A DNA stretch of 64,000 bases. Origin: Halovivax limisalsi. GTDB lineage: Archaea; Halobacteriota; Halobacteria; Halobacteriales; Natrialbaceae. The stretch lies in the NCBI RefSeq assembly GCF_023093535.1, contig NZ_CP095757.1:2356001-2420000 (forward strand), in the 5' to 3' direction. Shown one piece after another: positions 6,391-13,269 of this stretch (position 1 is its first letter; every line of letters begins with the position of its first letter). Under the pieces are notes generated by a model. It saw only the letters and a list, made by a program, of their open reading frames with translations. It ran no database searches and was not told where the DNA came from. Made by a program: the position numbers and the translations under genes.

Positions 6391-7928
6391 GCGGCGATTC
6401 CGCGAGTGCGCGATCGGACGACCGGCACGACGCGGCTGCGGACGACGCGAACGAGGTCCGGTTCGACCAGGCCCGCTGGTCGACCGACGGGACTTACGAG
6501 CCCCTGCTCTCCGAGAAGGACCAGACCGAAGTGTCGGTCGACGCCGAGGAAGCGGGGCTTCCCGACGAGCTGACGCGGGACTCGCTCGAACTGCCCGGCC
6601 TCTCCGAGTCGGAGCTCGCGCGCCACTACACCCGCCTCTCCCAGCACACCTACGGGATCACCAGCGGCCCGTACCCGCTCGGCTCCTGTACGATGAAGTA
6701 CAACCCGCCGTTCACCGAGGACGTCGCCGCGCTCCCCGGCGCCGCGGTCCACCCGGACCGCTCCGAGGACTCGATCCAGGGCACGCTCGAACTGTGCTAC
6801 CGTCTGCAGGACTACCTCGCGCGGATCGGCGGCATGGACGCCGTGACCCTGCAGCCCCCGGCGGGTGCGGCCGGCGAGTTCGTCGGGATCCGCGTCGCCG
6901 CGGCCTACCACGAGCACAACGGCGAGGGCCACCGCGACGAGGTGGTCGTCCCCGAGAGCGCTCACGGGACGAACTTCGCGACGGCGGCGCTGGCCGGCTA
7001 CGACGTGGTCTCGCTGCCGAGCGACGACGAAGGCCGGGTCGACCTCGACGCGCTCGACGCGGCGCTCTCGGAGAACACCGCGGCGCTCATGCTCACCAAC
7101 CCGAACACGCTGGGGCTCTTCGAGCGCGACATCGAGGAGATCGCCGAAATGGTCCACGACGTCGGGGGGCTGCTCTACTACGACGGCGCGAACCTGAACG
7201 CCCTGCTGGGTCGGGCCCGACCGGGCGACATGGGCTTCGACGTGATGCACTACAACGTCCACAAGACGTTCGCGACGCCCCACGGCGGCGGTGGCCCCGG
7301 CGCCGGCCCGGTCGGCGTGGTCGACGACCTGGCGCCCTTCTTGCCGGCCCCGCGCGTTCGGGAAGCGACGGCGGGGCGGAACGGATCGGATCCGACGACG
7401 GCGAGCACCGGCGCGGAGTACGAACTCTTCGACCCCGAGCACACGATCGGCAAGGTCCACGGCTTCCAGGGCAACTGGCTCGTCCTGGTGAAGGCCTTCG
7501 CGTACATCGCCCGGCTGGGCGACGAGGGCCTGACGGACGCGAGCGCGAAGGCGGTCCTCAACGCGAACTACCTGGGGAGCCGGATCGACTACGAGATTCC
7601 CTACGGCCCCTTCCACCACGAGTTCGTCGCGAGCGCGGGCGAGCAGGACGCCGCCGACGTGGCCAAGCGGATGCTCGACTACGGCGTCCACCCGCCGACG
7701 ACCAAGTGGCCCGAAATCGTCCCCGAGGCCCTGATGACCGAACCCACGGAGGTCGAGACGAAGTCGACGCTCGACCAACTCGCCGCGGCGTTCGACGCGG
7801 TAGCCGCGGAGGACGACGCGACGCTCGAGGACGCGCCAAACCGGACCACCGCGAAACGCATCGACCAGACGAGCGCGGCGCGGACCCCGCGGCTCTCGTG
7901 GCAGGCGCTCGACGACGGCGAAGAGTAG
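6387..7928 (+). CDS. gcvPB: Glycine dehydrogenase (decarboxylating) subunit 2
   Basis: PLP-carrying half of the split P-protein, 513 residues from the ATG that overlaps the gcvPA stop. The PLP lysine is K293 in [18 protein letters not shown], and the glycine-rich loop that follows is diagnostic. Other family segments are [11 protein letters not shown] (about 97-107), [10 protein letters not shown] and [11 protein letters not shown]. The N-terminal 45 residues are a polar, acidic extension. There is also an unusual polar insert at about 325-345 ([22 protein letters not shown]) before [13 protein letters not shown]. It forms an operon with gcvPA; the next gene (an RHH antitoxin) has its own promoter. 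Confidence 0.96.
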
Positions 7929-8036
7929 CGACTGTCTCGTTTCGCCACGCGGTTCGAAAGATGCCGTCGGGGTCGCTACACCCGTTCGAACTCGGAGATC
8001 GTGCCACGTCCAGCGACAGTTCTCCAGCAGGCTTAT

Positions 8037-8059
8037 TCGTGTGTACGGTCTACACACGA
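8037..8059. promoter_or_regulatory. Palindromic operator in front of RHH/PIN operon
   Basis: Perfect inverted repeat: arm TCGTGTGTA (8037-8045), 5-base spacer, arm TACACACGA (8051-8059). It lies directly behind a TATA-like element (GCTTATT, about 8031-8037) and ends five bases before the antitoxin ATG at 8065, where a repressor dimer would cover the transcription start. Ribbon-helix-helix antitoxins typically bind such repeats and repress their own operon; binding here is inferred. Confidence 0.7.
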
Positions 8060-8064
8060 GTACG

Positions 8065-8454
8065 ATGTCCCAGGAGAAGACGCGGGTGGATTTCAACGCC
8101 CCGACCTCCCTGGTCGAGCGAGCCGATCGGATCGCGAGCCTGCTCGACGTCTCCAGGACGCAGTTGCTCATCGAGGCGTTGCGCGACGAGATCGACGAGC
8201 TCGCCGCCGACGAGGGGTTCAAGCGCCGGCTACGGGACGCCTACTACGCGGACGAGATCGACTTCGAGACCGTCGAATCGATCCTCGGCTCGGAGGAGGC
8301 GATGCGGATGAAACTGGTGCGAGCCTCGCTCGACCGCGACCCGCCCGAGCCGGAACTGACCGGCGAACTACCGACCGACGACGCGTTTTACGGTGGCGAC
8401 GCTCCGGAATGGGTACCGGGCGAGGATGACGACGGCGAAGAAACCCGCGCCTGA
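8065..8454 (+). CDS. Ribbon-helix-helix antitoxin-like DNA-binding protein
   Basis: A 129-residue acidic protein. Residues about 5-45 (TRVDFNAPTSLVERADRIA then SRTQLLIEALRDEIDEL) have the beta strand plus two helices of a CopG/Arc-type ribbon-helix-helix fold. The C-terminal half is acidic (DDAFYGGDAPEWVPGEDDDGEE), suitable for neutralising a partner. I start at ATG 8065, immediately after the palindrome; an in-frame ATG at 8041 would place the operator inside the gene. The PIN-domain gene follows with at most one base between them, so the pair looks like a VapBC-type module, probably autoregulated through the palindrome. Confidence 0.8.
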   Translation: MSQEKTRVDFNAPTSLVERADRIASLLDVSRTQLLIEALRDEIDELAADEGFKRRLRDAYYADEIDFETVESILGSEEAMRMKLVRASLDRDPPEPELTGELPTDDAFYGGDAPEWVPGEDDDGEETRA

Positions 8455-8455
8455 G

Positions 8456-9013
8456 ATGGACGAACGCGCCCTCGTCGTGGTCGATACGAACGTGCTCTTG
8501 CACCTCGCCCGGCCGGTCGTCGACGGGCGAGAGCGCGCGCCGAGCGGCGCCGATCCGCTCAAGACGGTTCTCACCGCCTACGACGTCCACGTTCCGGCGA
8601 CCGTACTCGGCGAGGTCAGCGAGGCGGCGGGTGACGACGATCTCCTCGGGACGGCAGCGCGGCTGGTTCTCGACGCGGCGGATCACGTCACCACGCACGA
8701 CGTCGCCGGGACGGTCGACGACCCGCTCGCGTACGGCCTCGACGCCGGCGAGTCCCGCGGGATCCGGCTCGCGAACGACCTCGATGCCGACATGTTCGTC
8801 ACCGACGAGTTCAACTCGACGAATTACCTGTTCGTCTCGCTCGCCCTCGAAGACCGCAACACGCTGTTTACGACCCCGCACGTCCTCTGCGCGCTGGCCG
8901 ATCGTGCGATGCTGCCGCCGGAGTACGTCGATGCGGTTTTGACCTACTTCGTCGAGACGAAAGACTGGGATCGGGGGTACATCGATCGCCTTCGGGCCAC
9001 GTATCTACCGTGA
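8456..9013 (+). CDS. PIN-domain protein, probable toxin partner
   Basis: A 185-residue PIN-like protein. The first acidic residue is D10 in VVVDTNVLLHLA; a second lies in VLGEVSEAAG (about 60), and the C-terminal acidic pair is in ANDLDADMFVTDEFNSTNYLF (about 105-125), spacing typical of PIN nucleases. PIN toxins of VapC type cut specific RNAs; the target here is unknown. It is longer than a classic VapC (about 130 residues), with a helical C-terminal tail (YVDAVLTYFVETKDW). The ATG at 8456 is one base after the antitoxin stop. An alternative ATG at 8426 would overlap the antitoxin gene and add a poorly structured ten-residue leader. Confidence 0.78.
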   Translation: MDERALVVVDTNVLLHLARPVVDGRERAPSGADPLKTVLTAYDVHVPATVLGEVSEAAGDDDLLGTAARLVLDAADHVTTHDVAGTVDDPLAYGLDAGESRGIRLANDLDADMFVTDEFNSTNYLFVSLALEDRNTLFTTPHVLCALADRAMLPPEYVDAVLTYFVETKDWDRGYIDRLRATYLP

Positions 9014-9109
9014 CCGATCGAGATGGTGGCTATGCGGCTACCGATCGATGCTCGGACGGACCGAGCCGCACCGTCCGAGCCCGCCCGCTCTCCGACCGAA
9101 GGGCTGGTG

Positions 9110-9298
9110 TCATCCGTCGTTCCTGACTCGCTCGATTGCCTCGGTGAGTCGTTCTGCGTAGAAGTCGCGTTCGATGGCAGTCAAATTCGGTTTCCGCACA
9201 TGAGAACAGGCCGGAATGCGACCCTGAGCGTAGATCGCGGCGGCGACTGCACTCCCGAATCCTCTGACCCCACTCGATCGAGGCCAGCCGGATTCAGC
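9110..9298 (-). pseudogene. Possible coding remnant, unidentified
   Basis: In the 290-base gap between the PIN gene and the convergent gene at 9304, the minus strand holds 62 open codons ending at a TGA (9110-9112). It has no ATG, and an in-frame TGA lies just upstream. The codons read like haloarchaeal protein (GFGSAVAAAIYAQGRIPACS ... ERLTEAIERVRNDG) rather than random sequence, suggesting the C-terminal end of a decayed gene. I do not recognise the family. Confidence 0.3.
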
Positions 9299-9303
9299 TC
9301 ACC

Positions 9304-9921
9304 TCAGCGGAGGAGCGCCCCCGCCCGCTGGACGAGCCCGGGCGTCTCCGGTGTCAACCCGCCAGAGAAGCGCTCTCGGACGCCGAACAGCCGCCGGGCC
9401 AGACCATCCGACACCGTCCGCAGGAGACTGATATACCAGTTGTGTCGACCGAACGGCGGTTCGATCGTATAGGAGAGGTCATTTTGATCGGCCGCGTCCA
9501 TCAGGATCGACCGCATGATCCGGACGCCTTTCTCGGCATCGTACTCGCGCGCCAGGTAGTGGCGATACGGGTGACGTATCGACGAGTACTCCCAGTGGGC
9601 GTAGGTCTCGACGCCGTCCTCGGTTTCGTGGAGGATCACGTGTAACTGGTAGTCGGTCAGGAGCGACTTCCGGTAGACCCACGACCCGTCGGAGACGTTT
9701 CCGTCGACGCGCACCTTCAGCGATGCGACGAGGTTGCGGGTGAAGCCAAGCGAGTCAAGCAATTCCTCGATTTCGGGCTCGGAACTGCGTAGCGTCGCGA
9801 CGTACTCCTCCGGTGGCGTGTCACTGAGGGCGTAGCCACCGATCAACACGTCCAGCACGTTGTGGATCCCCGGAAGGACGCGCCGGCGGAACGCGTTGTA
9901 GGCGTCGGCCGTCCGTTTCAT
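9304..9921 (-). CDS. Conserved haloarchaeal hypothetical protein
   Basis: A 205-residue soluble protein without signal peptide or clear catalytic motif. It starts MKRTADAYNAFRRRVLPGI, has an aromatic, mixed alpha/beta middle (GSWVYRKSLLTDYQLHVILH, then YAHWEYSSIRHPYRHYLARE) and ends in a basic, Leu-rich tail. Codon use and acidic composition match the flanking genes, so it is probably a real gene. I recognise it only as a haloarchaeal-type orphan. It is transcribed away from the HAD gene; the 326 bases between the two starts must hold both promoters. Confidence 0.65.
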   Translation of the reverse strand: MKRTADAYNAFRRRVLPGIHNVLDVLIGGYALSDTPPEEYVATLRSSEPEIEELLDSLGFTRNLVASLKVRVDGNVSDGSWVYRKSLLTDYQLHVILHETEDGVETYAHWEYSSIRHPYRHYLAREYDAEKGVRIMRSILMDAADQNDLSYTIEPPFGRHNWYISLLRTVSDGLARRLFGVRERFSGGLTPETPGLVQRAGALLR

Positions 9922-10247
9922 ACTGGTACGTAATGGATTGTGCCGGATAGCCTTGTTCCCAGATTATCGCACTTCGGGGGATGCGCACCGACCGTGATGA
10001 AGGTCATCGTCGGGTGCCGTACCGTGCCAGGCCGATCGCCTGCAAGTCTTCATCGGTCGATCCCCGGCGGCGAGGTCGACCCGCAGTCACGCCACGCCGT
10101 CGAGCGATACGCGGACGCGGGTCGCCACGCCGACCGGGTCGCCCACACCGTGGGACGCGTCGAAGGTCACCTCGAGTCGAGGTCACTCCTCCATTCCGTC
10201 GTCTGGGGCCAAAACGATTATGCGAATTCGATTCCGACGGTCGGAAC
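9922..10247. other. Divergent intergenic region
   Basis: 326 bases between the divergently transcribed genes at 9921 and 10248. The only notable signals are AT-richer patches near 9955-9975 and just before 10248 (AACGATTATGCG), suitable as TATA boxes. The frames open across it give Arg/Pro-rich translations unlike the neighbours. I see no repeat or RNA structure. Confidence 0.5.
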
Positions 10248-10949
10248 GTGTCAGACATCGACGCAGTCTGTTTCGATCTGGACAGCACCCTGTGCGTATC
10301 CAATCAGTCCGACGGCGACGTCCACGCCGCGGTGTTCGACCGCGCGGGCATCGACCCGCTCTTTTCGCCCGAAGACGTCCGCGCCGTCGATTCGGCCGAC
10401 GTCGAGACGGCCGAAACCGACGCCGAGTTCTACGCAAACCTCTACCGGGCGACGGTCGCGAACTGCTCGACGGCTCGCGACGTCGACCCGTCGCTGCTCG
10501 ACGAACTCGGCGAGATCACCGCGGAGGTCGTCGACCAGACTGACGTGTCGTTTCGGCCGGGCGCCGAAGAGATGCTCGCGTCCGCCCGCGACCGGTACGA
10601 CGTGGGGCTGATCACGAACGGCGGGAAGGAGACGCAGCGGGCGAAACTCGAAACGCTCGGCATCGCGGACGCCTTCGACGTCGCGGTGTACTGCGACCCG
10701 ACGGCGGGAATCGACCCGAAGCCGGCGACGGAGCCGTTCCGACGGGCGCTCGCGGGGCTCACCGCGTCCGCCGCGACCACGCTGTACGTCGGCAACGACC
10801 ACAGCGCCGACGTGGTCGGCGCGCACGCGGCCGGGCTGCAGTCGGCGTGGCTGCCGCTGGATCGCCCCACCGGGACGACGCCGAGCGCTCCCGAGCCGAC
10901 CCCGACGTACCGGCTCGAATCGCCGGCGGACTTGTCGACGATTCTCTGA
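10248..10949 (+). CDS. HAD-superfamily hydrolase
   Basis: A 233-residue haloacid-dehalogenase-type phosphatase. Motif I is FDLDST near the N-terminus (residues about 9-14), motif II is ITNGG (about 121), motif III is the Lys in DPKPATEPF, and motif IV is VGNDHSADVVGA, where Asp binds Mg2+. A helical cap lies between motifs I and II, as in subfamily I members such as phosphoglycolate phosphatase. The substrate is unknown. I start at GTG 10248 because it gives the HAD strand right at the N-terminus and follows a TATA-like patch; the open frame upstream is Arg-rich non-coding sequence. Confidence 0.88.
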   Translation: MSDIDAVCFDLDSTLCVSNQSDGDVHAAVFDRAGIDPLFSPEDVRAVDSADVETAETDAEFYANLYRATVANCSTARDVDPSLLDELGEITAEVVDQTDVSFRPGAEEMLASARDRYDVGLITNGGKETQRAKLETLGIADAFDVAVYCDPTAGIDPKPATEPFRRALAGLTASAATTLYVGNDHSADVVGAHAAGLQSAWLPLDRPTGTTPSAPEPTPTYRLESPADLSTIL

Positions 10950-11055
10950 GGTTGGGGACAGCAGGGCGAGGAGGGCGTTTCGACACCGAGTGGCGACGGC
11001 TGCCCGTCGTGGTTCGCTCGGTCGATCGGAAATTGCAACCATGGCTCCACCAGTA

Positions 11056-11300
11056 ATTATTTATCGTCTCACGTCAACGGACAGAACGGAAGCCGCGCTC
11101 CGTCGAGCGTACGGGGATATAGCGAATGTCCCGGGTGTTAAGGGCACCCGAGACGCGGCTTCCGAAAACCGGTGGAGGTTTTCATCAGCCATGTTTGCGT
11201 ACAAACCACTGAGACAAAAAGGTCTCGCACGTCCGTGGTACAGTCAGCGTCAGCTATTCTCGGATTTTGGCTTGGATTCGAAAGTCGGTAGCCAAGTTCA
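11056..11300 (+). ncRNA. Candidate structured RNA or leader, accessory island
   Basis: A TATA-like element (ATTATTTAT, about 11056-11064) sits about 27 bases before a compact structure. An 11-bp perfect inverted repeat, CGGAAGCCGCG at 11087-11097 with its complement at 11154-11164, encloses two smaller hairpins: CCGT/ACGG, and CGGGTG/CACCCG at 11132-11150. Together they form a three-way junction. Further hairpins follow: AAAACC/GGTTTT, GTTTG/CAAAC, GAGAC/GTCTC and TTGGCT/AGCCAA (about 11271-11300). A frame from ATG 11041 to 11325 is open, giving about 94 residues that I do not recognise; it ends in TGATG overlapping the next start. Structured leader RNA or a small coding gene both remain possible. 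Confidence 0.35.
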
Positions 11301-11324
11301 TAACTACTCGGCGGAGGGACGCTG

Positions 11325-11513
11325 ATGGGTCGATACGATTACGACGGACTGTCGGCGGAATCTGCGTGCGAGCGGTGCGGGGTAGAGTTGAAGGGTGCTC
11401 ACTGGGTGCGACTCATGGCGTGCCATCAGGGGGCGCCGAACGAGCGATATCGGGATTCGGAGATGCGAATCTGCGTGGATTGCCTTGCTGCGCTGGGAAT
11501 GCTGGAAATTTAG
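11325..11513 (+). CDS. Small zinc-finger protein
   Basis: A 62-residue protein with two CxxC knuckles: CERC near residue 15 and CVDC near residue 51, separated by a basic and aromatic middle (HWVRLMACHQG). This is the pattern of the many haloarchaeal one-domain zinc-finger microproteins. Function is unknown; nucleic-acid or protein binding is usual for the fold. The ATG overlaps the stop of the upstream open frame (TGATG). The gene sits at the edge of an AT-richer accessory island. Confidence 0.6.
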   Translation: MGRYDYDGLSAESACERCGVELKGAHWVRLMACHQGAPNERYRDSEMRICVDCLAALGMLEI

Positions 11514-11875
11514 ATGAGTACGTCTGAGGATGAGGTGAGTGATAGGCTGCACGACCGGTTCAAGCCGATCCGGGGTGTGGGAAGCTAACTGATCTTCGGG
11601 TATCATCTCGGTTCGCGGAAGGAATGGGCTGTGAACACGAGGTACTGATATTGGGAGACTTGCCTTTCGAAGATTTGGTGCTGCTTTTAGGCGGCTTCTC
11701 TGAGGGCTATGCTTTAGAGGAGAGACTCGTGATCTGTCCTGTTGCGATGCTTTCGTGAACACCAACATCCCGACCTCGTGTGCATATTCGAGAAATGGGT
11801 TTTACCGAGCTAGGAACCGTGGGGTTAGAGACTTAGACATACCTCAAATATTAATGAAGCAACCAGGATTGTTGG
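11514..11875. other. Gene-poor, AT-richer stretch of the accessory island
   Basis: 362 bases with no convincing gene. A 24-codon frame starts at 11514 right after the zinc-finger stop (MSTSEDEVSDRLHD...) and stops at about 11588; it could be a truncated downstream gene. The rest, up to the end of the HEPN gene, shows no recognisable transposase. Composition drifts from high GC to the AT-rich island on the right. Confidence 0.4.
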
Positions 11876-12943
11876 TCATGTATCATCAAATGTCTCAGTC
11901 CGTCCAATGCCATCCTCGGGGAGTCCCGAAATGGCCGATAGTTTCCCAATCAAATATTCATCAAATTCTGATTTGACGGCCATTACTAACCGATTACAAG
12001 CTTTTGCAGCTTCAATGGCTTCCTCTTCTGTTGGGTTATAGCCCTCGTGAACTATATCATTCCGCAGGTCTCGCACGCCATTATTCCATTCTTTATACTC
12101 CTTCAACTCTTTAATCTGGAAGTCGAGCTTTGACGAATACTGATCCAGAATATTATCGAATTTCATGAATGTGCCATCCTCTCGTCGAGCAGTCTCGACG
12201 GCCTCCTCGCTGTCCATTCCGTAATAATCCTGTAATAACTGTTCACACGCTTCTTTCAACCATCTCTCCATCAATCTATGTGAATCCGTCACCGCTAAGT
12301 CAAACTCCTTTAATGACATTTGGTCACGTATCCGCAGTTGTAACCTAGTGTAGACGCTAGGATCGATCCTACTTTTTAACATACCTCTTATTAAACCATC
12401 ATCTTCATTATCAATTGTCGACCCCATTCCTCTCATTATTCCCGCATTTTTCTTGTAGTGTTGTTGAGTGTGTTCGCCTGAACCATCTTTCTCAATAATA
12501 ACAAAGTCAAAAATATCGTGAGGGAGCAAATTTCTCATCCAGTAACTATCTGTAACTGATTTATATGCATTAACAAACCTATTTACACATTGTGTGGCTT
12601 CTTCAACGATATATTCGTTCTTGTCCTTCTTCTGCCCACCACCGGAAATCTGTAAAACGGGCGATCCAGGAACCTCAAGGATATCCTCAGGGATTGTTTC
12701 GATGAAGTCTTCCCCAAATACTACTTGTGTGTTAGTTCTGGACAAATTCCCTAGACGATCTTCTTCGGCGCCAGTTGCAGTGGTTATCCCACCTTCTCCT
12801 CCACCTGGAACCATATTGAACCCAATTTCTGCTGTATAATTCTCAAATGGTATCTCATACGTTTCTAAATCATCCGAACTAGGATCTCCAACCCGGATCA
12901 GAAATGGTATCTGAAACCGGACAACGATTTTTTCTGTTTCCAT
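11876..12943 (-). CDS. HEPN-domain protein, possible defence RNase
   Basis: A 355-residue protein in an AT-rich island with codon use unlike its high-GC neighbours, a sign of transfer. The C-terminal part (about 210-335) is helical and carries the HEPN signature R-x4-H: R294-N-D-I-V-H299 in GVRDLRNDIVHEGYNPTEEE. This is the composite active site of many HEPN ribonucleases. The N-terminal 150 residues are mixed beta and unrecognised (VVRFQIPFLIRVG ... PGSPVLQISGGGQ). Standalone HEPN proteins of ApeA or Cthe_2314 type act in anti-phage abortive infection, so defence is a reasonable inference. I start at the second Met (METEKIVV), about 25 bases after a TATA-like CTTTATCA; ATG 12958 is the alternative. 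Confidence 0.7.
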   Translation of the reverse strand: METEKIVVRFQIPFLIRVGDPSSDDLETYEIPFENYTAEIGFNMVPGGGEGGITTATGAEEDRLGNLSRTNTQVVFGEDFIETIPEDILEVPGSPVLQISGGGQKKDKNEYIVEEATQCVNRFVNAYKSVTDSYWMRNLLPHDIFDFVIIEKDGSGEHTQQHYKKNAGIMRGMGSTIDNEDDGLIRGMLKSRIDPSVYTRLQLRIRDQMSLKEFDLAVTDSHRLMERWLKEACEQLLQDYYGMDSEEAVETARREDGTFMKFDNILDQYSSKLDFQIKELKEYKEWNNGVRDLRNDIVHEGYNPTEEEAIEAAKACNRLVMAVKSEFDEYLIGKLSAISGLPEDGIGRTETFDDT

Positions 12944-12958
12944 GCCATCACATATCAT

Positions 12959-13269
12959 TCTTCGGTGATAAAGCTCCGTACTGCTTCGACCTTTACCTAT
13001 CCACAGTCCGCTTCTGACTATGGTTCAGGCGGATACCTCTTCAGAGTTATAGCATCCCGTAAAGAGGTCCGTTTCGACTGGTTCTACTGGAGAATCGCGG
13101 TGCGGGGTTGGGCGGGGGCTGTGTAATTTTTTGGCTCTGTCCCCTTGGGGACACGCCATGCGGTGATGTTGGGGTACGGGAAGTCCTACACTGACCCTGC
13201 CACAATCGTTTCCCAAACAAACCAACCCGTATCGGTACGATTTATTTGCCCCGTCGTGAACGTTCGACT
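12959..13269. other. Intergenic region with a 53-codon open frame
   Basis: 311 bases between the HEPN gene and the EthD gene. On the plus strand a frame is open from GTG 12965 to TAA 13124-13126 and ends in an aromatic, non-random peptide (FDWFYWRIAVRGWAGAV), followed at once by a T-run (ATTTTTT) like an archaeal terminator. It may be a tiny gene or the tail of a decayed one. A small palindrome TGTCCCC/GGGGACA follows near 13139-13154. The TATA-like ATTTATTT near 13239-13246 fits the EthD gene start. Confidence 0.4.

Follow-up and report, generated by a model that had tools for sequence, protein, structure and literature searches.

A horizontally moving haloarchaeal gene for a predicted HEPN ribonuclease with a family-specific N-terminal domain and a plausible role in defence

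The window, by which we mean the whole stretch of 64,000 nucleotides analysed, is a piece of a single 3.89-Mb haloarchaeal contig (Halovivax limisalsi, NZ_CP095757.1). An open reading frame of 355 codons lies on its minus strand exactly where the preliminary description had placed a gene, and encodes a protein of 355 amino acids, designated P0001 (Table 1). An alternative start at 12958, which is 15 bases longer, would yield 360 amino acids; the arginine first called R299 is R294 in the 355-residue numbering used here. The start at 12943 is favoured because the starts of the homologues align there and because a TATA-like TTTATC sits upstream, with its centre ≈26-27 bases before the ATG as measured from the sequence. 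A TATA-like box at such spacing is the rule for leaderless haloarchaeal genes. The description of the gene as AT-rich and compositionally foreign was borne out by a GC fraction of 0.42 compared to 0.66 in the window (SD 0.04 for 1068-base stretches), where the minimum among other 1068-base stretches is 0.59. GC at third codon positions is 0.40 in this gene compared to 0.83-0.94 in 10 of 11 neighbouring genes measured and 0.67 in the eleventh (11325-11513). The maximum-scoring AT-rich segment amounts to the gene and its flanks, and comparison of the borders of this island for repeats revealed nothing resembling a target-site duplication.

Table 1. Features of the locus and the evidence for each (positions in the window)
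Feature	Position	Strand	Evidence
Gene for HEPN-domain protein P0001 (355 aa), assignment supported by sequence	11876..12943	-	Open reading frame, homologues, purifying selection between close homologues
N-terminal domain (residues ~1-195), without recognised family	12359..12943	-	Library searches, alignment A1, low-confidence model
D62-R63-L64-G65, motif of the N-terminal domain	12749..12760	-	Invariant in 7/7 sequences
C-terminal HEPN-like helical domain (residues ~205-340)	11924..12331	-	Low-confidence model and weak HEPN/DUF4145 matches
E226-x3-K230, accessory HEPN motif Ex3[KR]	12254..12268	-	Invariant in 7/7; definition in PMC3710099
R294-N-D-I-V-H299, predicted RNase active-site motif Rx4-6H	12047..12064	-	R and H invariant in 7/7
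TATA-like box ~26-27 bases before ATG 12943; putative own promoter, leaderless start	12967..12972	-	Sequence; general spacing rule
AT-rich segment, essentially the HEPN gene and its flanks	11498..13095	.	Maximum-scoring segment
Genus-level variable site, gcvPB-type glycine dehydrogenase gene to EthD gene	7917..13230	.	Comparison with 4 congeners

The island lies in a site that varies within the genus. In the comparison between strains suggested by the preliminary description, the HEPN gene was absent from all four congeners, whose gcvPB and EthD genes are separated by 1.75-3.5 kb of unrelated genes, compared to 5.3 kb in the window. Gene calls around the congener sites and the homologue copies came from a composition-based caller, which may miss genes. 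From their sequences, we take the congener genes to be metabolic, ferritin-like, and regulatory, and not defence genes. The variable site of the window also contains a VapBC-like pair at 8065-9013 (+), consisting of a small gene followed by the gene for a PIN-domain protein, which matches PIN_4 below the cut-off (E 0.007) and PADLOC PDC-S70 at E 6.9e-05.

With the window's own genome counted each time, the family occurs in 8 of 392 genomes at the level of the order, in 4 of 125 at that of the taxonomic family, and in 9 of 391 at that of the class. Three copies, from hosts of three families, share 88-96% protein identity. One of these genomes, Natronococcus jeotgali (G006), belongs to the same family as the window genome according to the genome search, and to the Natrialbaceae according to NCBI. 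The DNA common to the G006 and G136 copies extends over only 1384 bases (94%), and G006 matches the Halalkalicoccus jeotgali plasmid NC_014302 over 1063 bases at 86%, which covers the gene and ≈37 bases only. Around the copies compared, the only recurring neighbours were general matches to ATPases and acetyltransferases, so the gene is standalone, as had been proposed. Judged by these comparisons, the gene is horizontally exchanged among haloarchaea and moves alone. The ratio dN/dS between close homologues is 0.09-0.16 overall, 0.10-0.16 in the N-terminal half, and 0.06-0.17 in the C-terminal half. These low ratios in both halves, together with the changing flanks, imply that the whole protein is under selection while its surroundings change. 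One further candidate relative (G650) was set aside, because its match is an 82-amino-acid C-terminal stretch only, which is too short. A viral origin was likewise rejected, since neither the phage collection nor five scans of viral contigs contained a relative.

The settings of the copies bear on whom the gene may serve. One copy lies on a 23.7-kb plasmid (NC_014302), a tyrosine recombinase gene adjoins another (L019), and an Orc1/Cdc6-like AAA gene and a PD-(D/E)XK protein gene lie near the G758 copy. This company would suit an HEPN RNase that is carried by plasmids or proviruses and serves those elements in competition between elements or in superinfection exclusion, and not in host immunity. 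However, several copies, including those of the window and G154, are lone AT-rich inserts surrounded by host genes, where no genes of mobile elements were recognised nearby, and we regard a role in the service of the element as unlikely. TBP and TFB genes lie near the G315 copy (L020). The latter (L020:11372-12406, -) encodes a protein with TFIIB repeats (PF00382, E 3.6e-53) that begins with a MazE/AbrB-like domain (PF04014, E 2.3e-13), and the TBP gene is at L020:10500-11060.

The preliminary description had proposed a defence gene. A PADLOC scan of 10 neighbouring proteins, namely eight beside homologues and two in the window, returned for the eight homologue neighbours one strong match (PDC-S31, E 1.2e-22) and one weak match (JetC, E 0.0019). 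The former is a DUF2971 protein (L017:5760-6575, +) encoded on NC_014302 ≈0.7 kb downstream of the HEPN homologue. The neighbourhoods do not look like classical defence islands, and these matches do not add up to a defence-island signal. A defence role is plausible, and of the eight homologue neighbours scanned, only the PADLOC candidate on the Halalkalicoccus plasmid is convincing as a defence gene.

The gene is also disrupted in one or two hosts. In G758, it is split over two contig ends (L111/L112) that bear identical terminal sequence in opposite orientation, and these ends look as an inserted IS would leave them, which suggests interruption by an IS-like insertion. The G281 copy (L023) is truncated by unrelated sequence, and its host is of the same genus as that of G758. 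These disruptions, which are two cases only, fit a costly, dispensable gene.

Assignment of the C-terminal half to the HEPN superfamily was first based on the R-x4-H motif (RNDIVH, residues 294-299). As a bare pattern, this motif was rejected as evidence, because, of the 339 open frames in the window with 100 codons or more, 80 contain R[NDH]-x3-5-H, which is no more than chance. Its conservation is another matter. We aligned seven full-length sequences (alignment A1), of which the other six are 24-29% identical to the window protein. The alignment leaves out truncated G281, distant G636 and G650, both found later, and G758, found later and split over two contigs; the G315 protein extends to 407 amino acids, and its tail past residue ≈330 was kept in A1 and trimmed in A2. 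Among 26 invariant positions of 355 are R294, H299, E226, and K230, and the residue directly after the arginine is polar, being N in six sequences and H in one. Both R-x4-H and E-x3-K are kept in the G758 half gene and in the distant G636 relative. The preliminary reading had been staked on conservation of the arginine and histidine among homologues; with both invariant in all seven, it passes, and at this divergence their invariance exceeds what chance would give in the alignment. According to PMC3710099, HEPN domains are marked by Rx4-6H with a polar residue next to the R and by an upstream Ex3[KR], and the R and H take part in metal-independent RNA cleavage.

Profile matches to the same C-terminal stretch point in this direction below the cut-offs. 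In Pfam, the best was DUF4145 (E 0.0026, 18.2 bits vs a cut-off of 23.1), followed by HEPN_Cthe2314 (E 0.011) and HEPN_Apea (E 0.044), and the PADLOC models for CARF-HEPN and Csx1 proteins matched residues 225-318 at E 0.0016-0.03. There was no curated-level HEPN match to P0001 in Pfam and no match at all in NCBIfam. Because many HEPN families are equally divergent (PMC3710099), this failure of the profiles lowers confidence without excluding membership. When the whole family was scanned, the Pfam model common to most members was HEPN_RiboL-PSP (2/7), and the most widely shared PADLOC models were unrelated (MTase_I, 3/7; JetB, 2/7). An AlphaFold model built from two sequences only (pLDDT 50.6) contains low-confidence helices at residues 211-240, 245-253, 262-272, 280-299, and 306-339, in an order that fits an HEPN bundle; the penultimate long helix carries R294 and H299 at its end. 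A second prediction, also built from two sequences, reached pLDDT 33.0. Foldseek with the pLDDT-50.6 model, which is too poor to establish the fold, returned no match at E ≤0.001. Since the two predictions reach only these confidences, the fold search counts neither for nor against an HEPN fold, and sequence searches found no convincing relative among solved structures. Conservation of both motifs in all seven members together with several sub-threshold family matches supports, at the level of sequence, the assignment of the C-terminal half to the HEPN domains, and the gene most likely encodes an HEPN enzyme that cuts RNA. Strong purifying selection would also suit an HEPN protein with a housekeeping function, such as ordinary RNA processing, or one that is catalytically idle and binds a substrate, and catalysis has been lost in some HEPN families (PMC3710099). 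Yet the catalytic motif is invariant here, the gene is very patchily present (9 of 391 class genomes), it is transferred horizontally as a single gene, and its disruption is tolerated, all of which makes such a protein very improbable.

As first described, the N-terminal domain is unrecognised: residues 1-195 gave no curated-level match in Pfam, NCBIfam, PADLOC, or PHROGs. It is conserved alongside the HEPN part in all seven full-length members, with D-R-L-G (62-65), N121, F123, Y127, W135, and R137 invariant in A1, so that its motifs read D62-R-L-G and N-x-F-x3-Y ... W-x-R. Among matches at E ≤0.001 in the whole-profile scans of phylum, family, and class, none had this half fused to another effector. 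By these comparisons, the N-terminal half is a conserved, family-specific domain. The low-confidence AlphaFold model has strands at residues 3-12, 27-32, 37-45, 69-76, 146-153, and 158-164 and a helix at 108-131, and the domain is probably beta-rich.

A sensor domain ahead of an HEPN RNase is the arrangement of the Csm6/Csx1 CARF-HEPN ribonucleases. The top PADLOC matches of P0001, to CARF-HEPN and Csx1 models, raise the possibility that it serves type III CRISPR signalling as an accessory effector whose N-terminal domain is an unusual ligand binder. The likeness to Csm6/Csx1, however, is a weak match within the HEPN part; no CARF match falls in the N-terminal half, which the low-confidence model predicts to be beta-rich and not Rossmann-like, and a limited scan around the copies recognised no gene of CRISPR type. 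Membership in the CARF/Csx1 group was rejected because the matches fall only at residues 225-318, and we consider a role in type III signalling exceedingly improbable.

In the literature, ApeA counts as an anti-phage system. Like ApeA (ApeA-NTD1 plus the ApeA HEPN domain, PF18739), P0001 would combine a beta-rich N-terminal domain and a C-terminal HEPN domain in one protein; PMC3710099 describes the ApeA type as having an N-terminal domain made mostly of beta structure and, C-terminal to it, an Rx4-6H HEPN domain. Unlike ApeA, P0001 has 355 amino acids compared to ≈460-510 in four haloarchaeal PF18739 proteins, and it scores 14.7 bits on PF18739 against a cut-off of 24.4 bits. The ApeA N-terminal model in Pfam did not match P0001, and G000 had no PF18739 match at E 0.001. 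Profile-profile comparison with five haloarchaeal PF18739 proteins (from five of the six loci found, with the L046 protein left out) gave probabilities of ≈0.5-1.4%, with only the RN-x3-H helix end aligned. Membership in ApeA was therefore rejected, from a PF18739 score below the cut-off and a profile-profile probability of ≈1%. To DUF4145, HEPN_Cthe2314, and HEPN_RiboL-PSP, the likeness lies in weak matches on the C-terminal helices and the motif, but the scores are under the curated cut-offs and none of these families explains the N-terminal half.

HEPN-MNT pairs comprise an HEPN toxin with an Rx4H motif, a feature that P0001 shares. HEPN proteins that pair with MNT proteins have been described (PMC3710099), and the disrupted G758 copy would suit a costly gene, so that P0001 might be the toxin of a toxin-antitoxin or addiction module whose antitoxin is encoded elsewhere or is the N-terminal domain itself. 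But P0001 differs from the HEPN of such pairs by the extra N-terminal domain in the same chain, no neighbour is conserved in the loci compared, and no nucleotidyltransferase occurs among the neighbours scanned, which are a subset of all neighbours. Membership in the HEPN-MNT pairs was rejected on the latter two grounds, and an addiction module of either form seems to us decidedly unlikely.

The explanation that we prefer, with a probability of about one half, is a single-gene sensor-effector HEPN RNase that is probably defensive. The C-terminal HEPN domain would be a metal-independent endoribonuclease. In HEPN proteins, a dimer forms the composite active site; in P0001, the site made of R294 and H299 with E226/K230 would likewise form on pairing of two HEPN domains. 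The family-specific, beta-rich N-terminal domain may restrain the nuclease until it meets a trigger, for which some part or effect of an invading virus or plasmid is the likeliest candidate. The nuclease would then be freed, and the resulting RNA cleavage would lead to growth arrest or death of the infected cell. The gene spreads from one haloarchaeon to another as lone cargo that would need no partner and would bring along a promoter of its own. A more specific form of this explanation, in which the N-terminal domain is a new invader-sensing fold and the fusion with the HEPN RNase is an archaeal one-gene abortive-infection system, passed between families as lone cargo and not bound to islands, is put forward tentatively, as less likely than not. 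The family is missed at curated thresholds by Pfam, NCBIfam, PADLOC, and PHROGs, and the literature on haloarchaeal HEPN proteins, abortive infection, and defence, for the most part outside subscription papers, yielded no description of it. Should the defence role prove true, the family would contribute an HEPN effector under the control of a new kind of domain, and would show that a gene of defence type can be passed on singly and so escape searches for defence islands. The family is compact enough for testing in a laboratory haloarchaeon.

Two further observations concern a distant relative and a neighbouring element. The G636 protein gene (L024:9013-10515, -), from outside the haloarchaeal order, encodes the N-terminal domain and the HEPN motifs, and has, within the matched stretch, an in-frame TGA in place of W135, which all other members keep; this stop may be a nonsense mutation, a sequencing error, or recoding. 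To the left of the AT-rich gene (≈11045-11513) lies a dispersed cassette, in which a structured RNA-like element of ≈122 bases (11122-11244, +) is followed by a small zinc-ribbon gene (11325-11513, +). A 93-amino-acid frame at 11044-11325 was rejected as a gene, because stop codons interrupt its relatives and identity is higher at the DNA than at the protein level. A DNA query of the cassette stretch matched 28 places in the genome, and element copies were collected at L051-L075, L077, L078, and L086-L105. A covariance model built from 28 copies found the element in each of the five genomes of the genus, with 24-32 copies apiece, and at least once in 25 of the 61 genomes searched. The RNA alignments A5 and A6 hold 28 of 32 copies (the window and 31 loci), with the partial or diverged L076, L079, L080, and L081 left out. 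The element has conserved hairpins and some compensatory changes. Its covariation is modest and above both controls, with 19 cells changed on both sides vs 5.1 in shuffles and pairing of 96.4% vs 22.6-48.7% when slid, and two of five covariation measures are not clearly above shuffles. Rfam gave no match to the element at E ≤1, and its sole row lies elsewhere. A CxxC...CxxC frame lies downstream of the element in 20 of the 21 copies examined and begins ≈150-320 nt (mostly ≈200) after the element start, within a shared unit of ≈520 bp. The element is possibly a structured mRNA leader common to a large family of zinc micro-proteins.
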